In this document: positions 341 to 12,499 of the stretch, piece by piece
How the letters are laid out: each line of letters begins with the position of its first letter
How positions within the stretch are numbered: the stretch's first letter is position 1
Source of the DNA: Candidatus Nanopelagicus hibericus
GTDB taxonomy: Bacteria; Actinomycetota; Actinomycetes; Nanopelagicales; Nanopelagicaceae
DNA: 64,000 nt
Assembly (NCBI RefSeq): GCF_002288005.1
Contig: NZ_CP016771.1
Span: 496,001 to 560,000 of the forward strand
Direction of reading: 5' to 3'
Notes under the pieces: model-generated
Seen by the model: only the letters and a program-made list of their open reading frames with translations
What the model was told of the DNA's origin: nothing
The model's database searches: none
Made by a program: the position numbers and the translations under genes

Positions 341-1330
341 ATGAAGGTGGCGGTCGCCGGCTCAGTCGGTGGCGACCACATAATGAGTTTCGGTGGCAAG
401 TTCACCGACTCACTAGTTGCTGGCTCGCTTTCAAAAGTTTCACTCTCATTTTTAGTAGACACCTTGCAGATCAGACGTGGTGGTTGTGGCGCCAATATTT
501 CATTTGGAATGGGGGCGCTAGGGCTTAATCCAATATTAATTGCTGCAGTTGGAAAAGATTGGGTTGATTATCAAGCTTGGCTAAACCGACATGGCGTTGA
601 TACCTCACATGTTCTAGTCTCAAAAACCCTGCATACTGCAACATTTATGGTGACAACCGATACTGAGTTAAATCAGATTGCATCTTTCTTCCCAGGGGCA
701 ATGAGTGAGGCGAGAAATATTGAGTTAGCACCAATTATCGCTAAAACTGGAAAGTTTGATCTGCTAGTTATTTCACCAGATGATCCACAAGCAATGATGG
801 CTTACTCCCAGATGGCTAGGGATCTGAAAATTCCAGTGGCGGCAGATCCATCACAGCAGTTAGCCCGGATGGATGGCAAAGAGATTGCCCAGTTAATCGA
901 TGGCGCAAAGTATCTATTCTTAAATGAGTACGAATTAGCACTTGCGATTCAAAAGACTGGCTGGACTGACCGACAATTATTTGATCGCGTGCAGGTGAGA
1001 GTAGTAACGCTGGGATCAAAGGGTGCGCAAATTGAAGAACATGGCAAAGAGACAATTTATGTCGGGGTACCAAAAGAGAAGGCGAAGTTAGATCCCACTG
1101 GCGTCGGTGATAATTTTCGTTCCGGTTTTATTGCTGGCCTTGCTTGGGGTTTATCTCATGAGAGGTGTGGTCAATTAGGTTCCATGCTTGCTACTTACTG
1201 TATTGAAACTACAGGAACGCAGGAGTATCACTTCACCAAGGATGAATTTTTAAGCAGATTTGAGGTTGCTTACGGCAAATCAGGTGCAGATGAGGTTAAG
1301 CCTCATCTCAATGTCAGATTAGTTGGCTAA
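341..1330 (+). CDS. PfkB-family carbohydrate/adenosine kinase (AdoK/CbhK-like)
   Basis: This 329-residue protein is a ribokinase-fold (PfkB) kinase that phosphorylates a sugar or nucleoside with ATP in the cytoplasm. The N-terminal glycine-rich strand starts at residue 1. An RGGCGAN substrate-loop motif lies near residue 46. The C-terminal signature DPTGVGDNFR begins at residue 251 and places the catalytic aspartate at about 257. The segments around 'SFFPGAMSEARNI' and 'ADPSQQLARM' match the mycobacterial adenosine kinase AdoK as I recall it, and the corynebacterial CbhK lies in the same place beside ctaC. Adenosine is therefore the likeliest substrate, but this is inference. The gene follows erpA by 14 bases and probably shares its transcript. 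Confidence 0.88.
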   Translation: MKVAVAGSVGGDHIMSFGGKFTDSLVAGSLSKVSLSFLVDTLQIRRGGCGANISFGMGALGLNPILIAAVGKDWVDYQAWLNRHGVDTSHVLVSKTLHTATFMVTTDTELNQIASFFPGAMSEARNIELAPIIAKTGKFDLLVISPDDPQAMMAYSQMARDLKIPVAADPSQQLARMDGKEIAQLIDGAKYLFLNEYELALAIQKTGWTDRQLFDRVQVRVVTLGSKGAQIEEHGKETIYVGVPKEKAKLDPTGVGDNFRSGFIAGLAWGLSHERCGQLGSMLATYCIETTGTQEYHFTKDEFLSRFEVAYGKSGADEVKPHLNVRLVG

Positions 1331-1332
1331 TT

Positions 1333-2385
1333 TCATCGAAGCTTTGCAACAGTAATTTTTAATGCCTGACAAAATTCCTTCACCATTTTCTCACTGATAT
1401 CTTTATGAATAGTCAATCGTAAGTTACCGGCGATTGGCCGGCCCATGGCGGCGAGTACATGACTAGGTTGCATATCTGCAGACTTACAAGCTGAGCCCGA
1501 GTCAACTGCAAAACCTAACTCCTCCAAGGCGAGCAATGCTCGGTCTGCCTCGATACCTTTAATACTAAATGAAACAAACTTGGGCAGGCTTTCTGCAGAT
1601 GATGCAATATCAACATCAGCAATCTCACTTTTGATAAATGCAATGATCTGTTGCTTCAATTGTGATCGGATATCAATTTCTTTTAAGTAATTTTCTAGAG
1701 CAACGGCGCTAGCTAGGGCCAGTGGAATTGAGAATGTGCCTGGAGTGCGGGTTAAATCATTGTGGGGAAGGGGATTGCGCCATTTTTCAGCGGACTTAAT
1801 CACTAACACTCCTAAGCCTGCTGGCCCTTGCCAACTGGCACTATCAAAGAGTGCTGTTTGATATTCAAATTCTGGCAGGTGATCAACGCCGCTTGCGGTG
1901 CAATCCGCGAAGATCAGTGCTTGCTTTTTAATTACTTTTTGAAGGTTACCACTCTCACCATTAGCAACCTGCCAGCAGATCACATCTTGTGGGCCACAGG
2001 TGAAATCTGCAATCTCACCATTACCATCGACTGGTAAGCAGGTGGTTGATCTGCCTAAGTTTTGTTCAGTAGTTGCAACGGCAAAAATTTTTTGACGGTC
2101 TATTTTTGAATAATACAATTTGCTCTCAGCTTTTAATAGGCCAGTAATTCCTAATTGAAAACCAAGATCAACCTCTCCTAGAAACTCAATCTCATCTGGG
2201 CGGGCATTTAACGCGGTTGCAAAAGTTTGCCTTACCTGTTGCAGCAAAATGGCGGCTTGACGTGAGGTGTTGTTTAATTTGTTTGGATCTGCCCACCCGT
2301 TAGTAAAAAACTCAGATAATAGGGATAATGCAGCAGGGTGTAGCACTCTTTCCTGCTGAAAATCGGCTGTGATGCGAACCACCAA
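1333..2385 (-). CDS. Cysteine desulfurase-like class V aminotransferase fold protein lacking the PLP lysine
   Basis: The 350-residue protein aligns end to end with the NifS/IscS-like proteins found beside ctaC in actinobacteria. The usual S-A-H-K-W-G-G-P segment holding the Schiff-base lysine reads S-A-S-W-Q-G-P here (codons at about 1822-1845), so His-Lys is replaced by one Ser. The histidine that normally stacks on PLP is also absent (TTEQNLG region), and the N-H-E motif reads N-G-E. The mobile-loop cysteine survives in SGSACKSADMQPSHVLAAMG. It therefore looks like a pseudo-enzyme that kept a persulfide-type cysteine. There is no frameshift, and the length is normal. The start is TTG at 2385 or GTG at 2382. 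It is divergent from ctaC across a palindromic spacer and ends 2 bases from the kinase stop. Confidence 0.8.
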   Translation of the reverse strand: MVVRITADFQQERVLHPAALSLLSEFFTNGWADPNKLNNTSRQAAILLQQVRQTFATALNARPDEIEFLGEVDLGFQLGITGLLKAESKLYYSKIDRQKIFAVATTEQNLGRSTTCLPVDGNGEIADFTCGPQDVICWQVANGESGNLQKVIKKQALIFADCTASGVDHLPEFEYQTALFDSASWQGPAGLGVLVIKSAEKWRNPLPHNDLTRTPGTFSIPLALASAVALENYLKEIDIRSQLKQQIIAFIKSEIADVDIASSAESLPKFVSFSIKGIEADRALLALEELGFAVDSGSACKSADMQPSHVLAAMGRPIAGNLRLTIHKDISEKMVKEFCQALKITVAKLR

Positions 2386-2441: not shown

Positions 2442-3209
2442 ATGAGCCCGCTTGCTGGTAAATCTTCACTTCTACCACTGGCATTACTCCCATTATTAAC
2501 AGCCTGTTCTAAAGCAGATGTTTCCGGTCTTGGTTTTGAAGAGGGAATTTCAAGTGTAAATGACGCCTCATTGTCACTTTGGCAAGGAGCTTGGATTGCA
2601 GCCGCAGTGGTGGGTGTATTTACATTGATCTTGATTTTATGGCCAGTATTTTTCCATCGCAAGAAAGATGAGAGTTTTCCTAAGCAAACTCAATACAACA
2701 TTCCAGTAGAGGTTGCATACACGGTAATTCCATTTATCATCGTGGCGGTACTTTTTTACTTTACCGTACAACGCGAATCCAAGATTGTGAAAATTACTCC
2801 AGACGCGCAAGTCTCACACTTTATTGATGTGCTTGGATTTCAATGGTCATGGCAGTTTAAGTATCGCGACGCAGGTGAATACAAGAGTGCAACAGTTACT
2901 GGGACTCCCGCTCAGCCTCCTACCTTGTATTTGCCTCAAGGAGAAAAGGTCCGCTTTACTTTGGATGCCAATGATGTGGTTCACGGGTTTTGGATCCCTG
3001 CTTTCATGATTCAGATGCAGAATCTGCCCGGTGTGACCAACAAACTAGAGTTCACGGCAAATAAGCTGGGAACCTACCCAGGTCGATGCAATATATTATG
3101 CGGAAGAAATCACTCACAGATGTTATTTTCTGTGAAGGTGGTAACGCCAGCAGAGTATGAGCAGTATCTACAAGGTTTAGTAGCCGAAGAGAAAGCAGCA
3201 GTTGCATGA
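2442..3209 (+). CDS. ctaC: Cytochrome c oxidase subunit II
   Basis: Subunit II of the aa3-type oxidase, 255 residues, accepts electrons from cytochrome c1 at the CuA centre on the outer membrane face. A signal sequence ends in a lipobox (LLTAC, Cys near residue 22). Two membrane segments follow (about 50-70 and 88-108), then the cupredoxin domain. CuA ligands are visible as His181, Cys216, Cys220, His224 and Met227. The usual C-x-E-x-C is C-N-I-L-C, so the glutamate that gives a backbone carbonyl to CuA and a side chain to the Mg/Mn site in other oxidases is an isoleucine. The gene overlaps ctaD by 4 bases (ATGA). It has a leaderless-type promoter. Confidence 0.95.
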
Positions 3210-4867
3210 CAACCTACGCGCAACGACCCGTAATTTCTGCCTCGCCATCCGCGCCACTGCCAACTTCAAAGGGACGCTTGCTAGTCAAGTGGCTTACCTC
3301 AACTGACCACAAAACAATTGGGTACCTCTATTTAATTACCTCATTCACTTGGTTCTTGATCGCTGGTTTAATGGCATTACTACTACGTGGTGAGTTAGCT
3401 CGACCAGGAATGCAATTTTTGAGTAATGAGCAGTACAACCAGATATTTACTATGCACGGCACCATCATGCTCTTAATGTTTGCCACACCATTATTTGTTG
3501 GTTTTGCTAATGTAATTATGCCGCTGCAAATTGGCGCCGCCGATGTGGCATTCCCAAGATTAAATATGCTTTCATACTGGTTGTATTTATTTGGTGGCAC
3601 TATTGCGTTCATCGGTTTTATCACCCCAGGCGGCGCAGCATCCTTTGGTTGGACTGCATACGCTCCATTATCCAGCGTGGAGTACTCACCCGGTATTGGC
3701 GCAGACCTTTGGTTAATTGGGCTTGCGATTGGTGGTTTGGGAACAATTCTTGGTGGCGTTAATTTTGTAACCACAATTTTAACTATGCGCGCACCTGGAA
3801 TGACGATGTTTAGAATGTCTATTTTTTCTTGGAACGTACTTTTAACTTCAATTTTGGTTTTGATCGCATTCCCACCACTTGCAGCAGCTTTCTTAGCACT
3901 TGAATCTGATCGCTTATTTGGCTCACATATCTTTGATCCCGCAAACGGCGGAGCGATGTTGTGGCAGCATTTATTCTGGTTCTTTGGTCACCCTGAGGTT
4001 TATATATTAGCGTTGCCATTTTTTGGTATTGCTACTGAAATTTTGCCAGTCTTTAGTCGTAAACCTATTTTTGGTTATAAAGGATTAATTGCCGCAACCA
4101 TTGCAATTGCAGCTTTGTCTGTGGCGGTTTGGGCTCACCATATGTATGCAAGTGGGCAGGTGCTCTTGCCATTCTTCTCATTTATGACATTTTTGATTGG
4201 TGTGCCAACTGGGGTTAAATTCTTTAATTGGATCGGCACCATGTGGCGAGGATCGGTCACTTTTGAGACACCGATGCTTTTTGTTCTTGGCTTTTTGATT
4301 ACCTTCTTATTTGGTGGGATTACTGGAATCATCTTGGCCAGTCCACCACTTGATTTTGCAGTTTCAGCCTCCTACTTCGTAGTTGCTCACTTTCACTATG
4401 TCTTATTTGGCACTGTGGTATTTGCTATGTTCGCTGGCTTCTATTTCTGGTGGCCAAAGATGACTGGTCGAATGTTGGATGAAACCTTAGGAAAGATTCA
4501 CTTCTGGACATTGTTCTTTGGATTCCACATTACATTTTTGATTCAGCACTGGTTAGGGATAAAAGGCTTTCCACGTAGATACGCCGATTATTTAGCCTCA
4601 GACGGATTTACCTTCATGAATATGGTCTCAACTGTTGGCTCAGGCTTGCTCGCACTTTCCATGATTCCATTTTTCTTAAATTTGTGGCAATCCCGAACTA
4701 GCCCAAAGGTGACAAGTGATGATCCTTGGGGACACGGCTCATCTTTAGAGTGGGCAACCTCTTGCCCACCGCCTCGACATAATTTTACTTCGATGCCAAG
4801 GATTCGTAGTGAGCGTCCAGCTTTTGATCTGCATTACCCACACATGGCGGAAAAAGCGACCCACTAA
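3206..4867 (+). CDS. ctaD: Cytochrome c oxidase subunit I
   Basis: This is the 553-residue catalytic subunit holding heme a, heme a3 and CuB. The heme a ligands are His84 (MHGTIM) and the second histidine of A-H-F-H-Y (His397). His395 of the same motif binds heme a3. CuB is bound by His262 of GHPEVY, with Tyr266 cross-linkable, and by His311-His312. The D-channel entry aspartate ([11 protein letters not shown]) and the glutamate of HPEVY are both present, so this is an A-type heme-copper oxidase. Twelve hydrophobic segments span the chain. The gene is translationally coupled to ctaC and overlaps ctaF by one base. Confidence 0.97.
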
Positions 4868-10711: not shown

Positions 10712-11700
10712 GATTTTCTCTCCCAGAAGCTAGGTCCAACCGCTTCCGTAAATGGTTGTTTCGCAATCAAATATCCATCTGCATCGACGGTAATGGCCAA
10801 TTGTGGCAGAGGTCTAGCTGATGGACCAAAGATAACCTTTGCGGCACGGGTCACATCAAATGTTGATTGATGGCATGGGCAGAGTAAATGTTTGGTGGTT
10901 TGTTCATATAAAGCAACTGCGCATCCCATGTGTGAGCAAATCTTGGAGAAGGCGATGATGCCCTCATGAGTCCAAGAAAGCCGTTCTGCATCTAATTGAA
11001 ACTCAGATGGCCGTAATCTAATTAACAACACCGCATCCTTTGCAATATCCTCTAAGTGACGCTCTTTTCCTGGGGCAATCTCTGGCATAACTTGGGCAAC
11101 ACCACCAACTTCAAGATCACTAGCTTTAATTGGTCTGTCACCTGGATCTGTCACCAATCTCGTTCCGGTTTTCCAACTAGTTTCATTTAGAGAGTTACCA
11201 GGAAGTGGTCCTAAATCTCGCAGCATCACCACCGCAGGTAGACCCGCTAAACCAAGGGCTGCAAATAGTGAGCGCTTGATTAATGGCCTTCTTCCTAAAC
11301 CTGCCTCTTCGGCGCCAACCTTTACAGCTTTAACAAACTCAGATCTATCTTCCTCTGCTGAACGCATAGTGTGGCGTTGAGCAATCACCTCTTGATCTGG
11401 CATCAAAGTCTTTGCCCAATGGACTGCGCCAAAACCAATAAATAACAATCCAAATGCAACACCGAGGCCAATCCCTAATTGTTGGGCGTTGGTATTGCCC
11501 ATCACCGGTATAAAAATAAATAAATCCTCTTTGATAAAAAAGAATGAGTAAAAAAACAATAAAGTTCCAACAGCAGAAAGTGAGAATAAAACTGCAACTT
11601 GGCGCTCAGCACGTTTTGCAGCGATCGGATCGGTATCAGCCCTGCGATGAATGTGCTCAGGCAATCCTGGATCTGCTAGTGGCTCTAACTCATTAGACAT
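10708..11700 (-). CDS. qcrA: Rieske iron-sulfur subunit of the cytochrome bc1 complex
   Basis: This 330-residue Rieske protein passes electrons from quinol to the diheme cytochrome c1. Three hydrophobic segments lie in the N-terminal two thirds (about residues 34-55, 67-90 and 143-160), the actinobacterial three-helix arrangement. The [2Fe-2S] ligands are Cys255 and His257 in CSHMGC and Cys274 and His277 in CPCH. The extra disulfide cysteines Cys260 and Cys276 are present. It is separated from qcrC by 4 bases and overlaps qcrB by 4 bases. Confidence 0.96.
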   Translation of the reverse strand: MSNELEPLADPGLPEHIHRRADTDPIAAKRAERQVAVLFSLSAVGTLLFFYSFFFIKEDLFIFIPVMGNTNAQQLGIGLGVAFGLLFIGFGAVHWAKTLMPDQEVIAQRHTMRSAEEDRSEFVKAVKVGAEEAGLGRRPLIKRSLFAALGLAGLPAVVMLRDLGPLPGNSLNETSWKTGTRLVTDPGDRPIKASDLEVGGVAQVMPEIAPGKERHLEDIAKDAVLLIRLRPSEFQLDAERLSWTHEGIIAFSKICSHMGCAVALYEQTTKHLLCPCHQSTFDVTRAAKVIFGPSARPLPQLAITVDADGYLIAKQPFTEAVGPSFWERKS

Positions 11701-11704
11701 TTTT

Positions 11705-12499
11705 CTACCTTGCCTTTGCAGTCAGCCACACGGCGATACCAATTAATAATCCAAGACCTAAAGTCCAAACCAACAACCCTTCAGTAACTGGTCCAACTCG
11801 ACCAAGTGATGCACCACCTAAAGCTGGCTCGGCTTCGGCTGATTTGATCCACTTAATAATTGAAAGCTTCTCTTCTGGGGTAATAATCTTGTCATTAAAA
11901 ACTGGCATTGCTTGTGGGCCGGTAATCATCGCTTCATATATATGTCTAGCCTTTACCCCCATCACAGTTGGTGCGTACTTTCCTTGGGTTAATGCGCCAC
12001 CTTGGCCAGCGAAGTTATGACACATCGCGCAGTTATTTCTAAATAACTCTCCACCCTCGGCAGTGTTACCATCTCGCTCCCACTCAATCTCTTCATTTGT
12101 GTAGGCACGAGGTCCTGGTGCTAACGAAGCAACGTAGGCGGCAAGAGCTGCAACCTCCTCATCGTTGTAAACCGGCGCTTTTCTCATGGCTTGTTGACTC
12201 ATATCCTGCATCGGCATTCGACCAGTTGCTACTTGAAAATCTACAGAGGCTGCGCCAACACCAATTAAAGATGGCGCTACCGCTCCACCTTCGCCATTTA
12301 GGCCGTGACATGAAGAACATCCTTTAAGGAAGATCTCCTTACCCTCCTCAATTAATGTCGATCTGGCGGAGGCAGCTGCTGCGCTTTGATTAGGTGCGGC
12401 AGTTGCGGCAGAAAAAGTAAAGCCGAGTGCAGAAAGAGCAATTAACAGCAGCACAGGGGTGGCAAACTTATGCCGGCGATACTTGGAAATAAATTTCAT
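11705..12499 (-). CDS. qcrC: Diheme cytochrome c1 subunit of the bc1 complex
   Basis: A 264-residue membrane-anchored diheme cytochrome c which replaces a soluble cytochrome c by wiring bc1 directly to the CuA site of the oxidase. The N-terminal hydrophobic segment (about residues 14-35) acts as a signal or anchor. Two heme-binding motifs are visible, CSSCH at 61-65 and CAMCH at 157-161. A C-terminal membrane helix closes the chain (about 240-260). Candidate axial methionines lie in MPMQDM and GPQAMPVFND. Two CxxCH motifs are diagnostic of actinobacterial QcrC. Confidence 0.95.
   Translation of the reverse strand: MKFISKYRRHKFATPVLLLIALSALGFTFSAATAAPNQSAAAASARSTLIEEGKEIFLKGCSSCHGLNGEGGAVAPSLIGVGAASVDFQVATGRMPMQDMSQQAMRKAPVYNDEEVAALAAYVASLAPGPRAYTNEEIEWERDGNTAEGGELFRNNCAMCHNFAGQGGALTQGKYAPTVMGVKARHIYEAMITGPQAMPVFNDKIITPEEKLSIIKWIKSAEAEPALGGASLGRVGPVTEGLLVWTLGLGLLIGIAVWLTAKAR

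Follow-up and report, generated by a model that had tools for sequence, protein, structure and literature searches.

In this study, we show that a NifS/IscS-like gene lying divergently beside the cytochrome oxidase genes of the window (the whole stretch of 64,000 nucleotides analysed here, G000:C1:496001-560000 in a 1.22 Mb genome) encodes a protein that has lost the Schiff-base lysine and the other PLP contacts of a cysteine desulfurase, that retains the loop cysteine together with the asparagine, aspartate and arginine of the pocket, and that is kept under purifying selection at a conserved locus. Cysteine desulfurases are normally PLP enzymes that start sulfur traffic. The sequence suggests that the lysine-less protein, which is conserved in freshwater actinobacteria, carries sulfur or helps to build iron-sulfur clusters rather than releasing sulfur; for the window protein, we infer from the residues lost and kept that PLP is absent and that the thiol is functional, and we propose candidate partners on the same basis.

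Reading frame and residues of the former active site

The gene occupies 1333..2385 on the minus strand, as placed by ORF calls, profile matches, an AlphaFold model and a PDB fold search. Its frame is open over 350 codons, as a preliminary description of this DNA had stated, when counted from the TTG at 2385; comparison with the relatives favours the GTG at 2382 as the start (349 codons). The window protein passes the cut-off of the class-V fold model PF00266 (42.5 bits vs 21.5), and the NifS equivalog models are far from reached (e.g., TIGR03402, 95.8 bits vs a cut-off of 530.75).

The preliminary description had also read a replaced lysine site, replaced PLP-stacking histidines and a well-kept loop, and the alignment agrees with it on all three. 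Residues S182-P188 read SASWQGP (1822..1842, minus strand), with Ser184 (codon 1834-1836) in the column of the Schiff-base lysine and Ala183 in that of the phosphate histidine. N142-G143-E144 (1954..1962, minus strand) replaces N-H-E, the asparagine and glutamate being invariant and the stacking histidine gone. The window protein (P0001) lacks all six of the canonical contacts to PLP (Thr73, His143, Gln164, Ser181, His183, and Lys184). Still present, besides Asn142 and Glu144, are Asp161, the equivalent of the aspartate at the PLP pyridine nitrogen (1903..1905, minus strand), Arg323, the equivalent of the substrate-carboxylate arginine (1417..1419, minus strand), and Cys300, the persulfide cysteine (1486..1488, minus strand), in the intact loop SGSACKSADMQPSHVL.

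Conservation among relatives

The relatives were aligned to one profile (110 rows, consisting of 108 family sequences and two canonical IscS), and the family sequences fall into 38 that bear the lysine and 70 that lack it. The lysine is absent from all 47 sequences of Nanopelagicaceae, the family of the window, and from 23 of the 61 that belong to other families of the class. Among sequences without the lysine, Cys300, Asn142, Glu144, and Arg323 are each found in 70/70, Asp161 in 68/70 and His309 in 67/70; Cys300 is likewise present in 38/38 lysine-bearing sequences. None of the six PLP contacts is kept in 44 of the 47 Nanopelagicaceae, vs five or six in 36 of the 38 lysine-bearing sequences. 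Since the contacts were lost together, more than the lysine is gone: the cofactor site has been lost, and the thiol loop and the carboxylate pocket stay. All orthologues have open frames, with no internal stops reported among them.

A sequencing error at the lysine codon is excluded because the residue is missing from every orthologue of the same genus and family that covers the site, and recent decay of the gene is ruled out by the absence of the lysine family-wide. The closest named loci are those of Candidatus Nanopelagicaceae and Planktophila metagenome-assembled and single-cell genomes. Three metagenome bins titled Bifidobacterium breve (L157, L165, and L169) carry Planktophila-like loci, and their titles look mislabelled. 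A single-protein scan of genome contigs and the A2 scan of viral contigs gave no relatives.

The lysine may have been lost more than once. Free quick trees place the lysine-less rows in several positions that need 4-7 changes, and the mixed family f37 and the locus L102 hint at separate losses. By AU tests one lysine-less clade is still compatible with the data (p 0.58), and four smaller groupings gave p 0.40-0.65; we therefore claim no count of losses. At L102 the site reads GSAHMWGG, with methionine in place of lysine and the flanking serine and histidine retained, possibly an early intermediate of the loss.

Selection on the lysine-less gene

The lysine-less gene is under purifying selection, which is weaker than that on its neighbours. 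Its dN/dS was 0.08-0.23 in eight close pairs (NG86 and YN00), which in almost every comparison exceeds the values of ctaC and the kinase, often several-fold; the ctaC values reach 0.08-0.10 in two pairs.

Locus and natural deletions

By locus comparison the gene is flanked by a PfkB-family kinase gene (341..1330, plus strand) and, divergently, by ctaC (COX2; 2442..3209, plus strand), which starts 56 bp away and carries the CuA ligand motif. These are followed on the plus strand by ctaD for cytochrome oxidase subunit I (3206..4867; called, like ctaC, from the open reading frames as well) and, by domain match, a gene for cytochrome c oxidase subunit IV (PF12270; 4867..5268). The order of kinase, NifS-like gene, divergent ctaC and ctaD is the same class-wide for lysine-bearing and lysine-less copies. 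An erpA-like gene for an A-type iron-sulfur carrier (PF01521) lies just beyond the window, upstream of the kinase gene, with nadA further out. At the locus L173, the A-type carrier gene (11962-12324) and nadA, which encodes an iron-sulfur enzyme (10727-11884), immediately precede the kinase gene.

TusA is fused or adjacent to the NifS-like gene in 36/38 lysine-bearing copies, in 17/23 lysine-less copies of other families, and in 16/46 of the window's family, a count that leaves out the row of the window itself. Every full-length match to TusA that was read carries the CPxP motif, and 33 lysine-less copies adjoin such a TusA. TusA (PF01206) has no match in the genome of the window and is absent from its genus; several other genera of Nanopelagicaceae do have it at the locus. 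No IscU partner is linked to the gene, the only PF01592 protein of the genome being encoded at G000:C1:654298 beside SufS. This genome has other, intact class-V enzymes, among them those of a SufS-like gene beside SufU and an IscS-like gene.

In nine genomes of the sister genus g37 (L176, L177, L179-L185), the kinase stands directly before ctaC and the NifS-like gene is cleanly missing. The CuA motif CxxxCxxxHxxM is found in ctaC of eight of these genomes, and in the ninth (G351) ctaC is split across contigs. A ctaC with CuA ligands thus does not depend on the protein, whose role is dispensable where it is missing from an intact locus, and adjacency to ctaC alone is weak evidence of function. 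Across the class, the genomes thereby form a series of lysine with TusA, no lysine with TusA, neither lysine nor TusA, and gene absent, which is a ready comparative system.

These results divide the preliminary description. Its argument for selection on a role other than desulfuration, and not for decay, is supported by the family-wide absence of the lysine, the invariant loop cysteine, the dN/dS values, and the CPxP-bearing TusA beside lysine-less copies. The sulfur carrier or structural partner that it proposed may be the role of the protein, and A. fulgidus IscS offers a direct precedent. Its remark on the CuA chemistry of the neighbouring ctaC finds no support, given that the gene order is class-wide, that the locus also contains the PF01521 gene and nadA, and that the readable ctaC genes of the g37 deletions keep their CuA ligands.

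Structure and known systems

The AlphaFold2 model of the window protein (pLDDT 83.1, pTM 0.85) is of low confidence in the loop at 302-305 and in stretches 30-39 and 207-216. A PDB fold search with this model gave NifS/IscS desulfurases as the best matches (TM about 0.8). E. coli IscS and M. tuberculosis IscS share this fold and the loop cysteine, but are active PLP desulfurases with the Schiff-base lysine.

When the family profile was compared with the PDB, the IscS of Archaeoglobus fulgidus ranked second as its D199K mutant (4R5F) and third as the wild type (4EB5; further structures are 4EB7 and 4HVK). This protein is reported to have no desulfurase activity because its lysine is replaced by aspartate (PMC7585200, 2020), and to supply a cysteine ligand to a [2Fe-2S] cluster in IscU (PMC7585200, PMC9769115). 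The motifs N-H-E, D-A-A-Q-S, and S-A-H-K of active enzymes appear in the wild type as N-N-E, D-A-T-A-S, and S-S-N-D. It is the closest precedent for the window protein: both have the NifS/IscS fold, replacements of the catalytic lysine and its neighbouring histidine, the D-x-T-A-S motif and the loop cysteine. However, A. fulgidus IscS has IscU as its partner and keeps the phosphate-site threonine (ATEAN), whereas the window protein has lost all six contacts, has no linked IscU, and has the genes of a PfkB kinase and of ctaC on either side of its own. Methanosarcina acetivorans IscS1 is also reported to lack the catalytic lysine and has been suggested to act like A. fulgidus IscS; it differs in being archaeal, in belonging to one of three IscSU pairs, and in having no link to respiratory genes in that report (PMC7585200). 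The ctaC-linked NifS-TusA proteins of other Actinomycetes (L032-L035, L037-L041, L045, and others) share the locus, 26-32% identity and the invariant loop and pocket with the window protein, but have an intact PLP site and a fused or adjacent TusA. In the open-access literature, we found no paper linking cysteine desulfurase with TusA and ctaC, nor one linking cysteine desulfurase with TusA, Actinobacteria, and cytochrome c oxidase.

Possible functions

We favour, with some confidence, the explanation that the window protein is a pseudo-desulfurase without PLP that works by way of the thiol in its loop, either as a persulfide relay or as an iron-sulfur ligand. The PLP Schiff base would no longer be formed, and without it the usual release of sulfur from cysteine would not occur; the flexible loop that bears Cys300 is retained, as are Asn142, Asp161, and Arg323 of the pocket. 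As a relay, Cys300 might take up persulfide or sulfide made elsewhere, for instance by the intact class-V enzymes of the genome including the SufS-like one, and hand the sulfur on, to TusA in those relatives that still have it. Alternatively, Cys300 might be a ligand or partner in the building of iron-sulfur clusters, for which A. fulgidus IscS is the model and the ErpA-like carrier encoded nearby a candidate client. Some observations count against this explanation: in almost every comparison the neighbouring genes evolve more slowly than this one, the gene is missing from the intact locus of the nine g37 genomes, and there is neither a TusA in the genus of the window nor a separate linked IscU. 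The retained asparagine, aspartate, glutamate, and arginine could be structural.

It is a more tentative extension, which we hold to be possible and not probable, that PLP-free pseudo-desulfurases form an actinobacteria-wide class that arose several times at one respiratory locus, has either TusA or an ErpA-like carrier as its partner, and uses the loop thiol alone for sulfur transfer or iron-sulfur assembly. If it is true that a large bacterial group dropped the enzyme chemistry and kept the carrier cysteine, the noncatalytic role proposed for A. fulgidus IscS becomes testable outside the archaea, and the automatic annotation "cysteine desulfurase" is wrong for lysine-less genes.

Among the other explanations, it seems unlikely that the protein is an amino-acid or sulfur sensor or an allosteric partner, whose pocket of asparagine, arginine, and aspartate would, without PLP, bind cysteine or a related carboxylate, and which would regulate a neighbour or a true desulfurase. 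Asn142 and Arg323, the residues for the substrate carboxylate, match Cys300 in their invariance, and a divergent arrangement such as that with ctaC is frequent for regulators; but the sensing of a ligand does not need an invariant loop cysteine, lysine-bearing copies have the same gene order, and a domain search of the window protein found no DNA-binding or other signalling domain. Slow reductive decay, in which first the lysine, then TusA and then the gene are lost, is slightly less likely again. The series found across the class can be read as such a path and the dN/dS above that of the neighbours would agree with it, but the frames are open in all orthologues, the ratios are still those of a constrained gene, the loop and pocket residues are invariant across many genera, and entire families typically have copies without the lysine.

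We think it improbable that the old pocket supports an unusual catalysis with noncovalent PLP or another cofactor. The near-constant Asp161 would suit a pyridine ring, and PLP is named among the cofactors in a figure legend on 4EB5, the A. fulgidus IscS-IscU structure; however, the phosphate-binding threonine, serine, and histidine are also lost from the window protein, whereas A. fulgidus IscS has the canonical-looking threonine motif. Finally, a role as an assembly factor for CuA or cytochrome oxidase, for which the class-wide adjacency to ctaC would speak, is very improbable in view of the g37 genomes that have CuA ligands without the gene, and NifS/IscS homologous enzymes are cytosolic while CuA lies outside the membrane.

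Intergenic region before ctaC

An inverted repeat at 2393-2430 in the intergenic region before ctaC has a strong fold as single-stranded DNA (z -5.3), and the relatives do not conserve its left arm. Just before ctaC, at 2423-2436 of the window, the element GAAGGTTATCCTTA is conserved in the genus, and the TATCCT within it could be the -10 box of a leaderless transcript.
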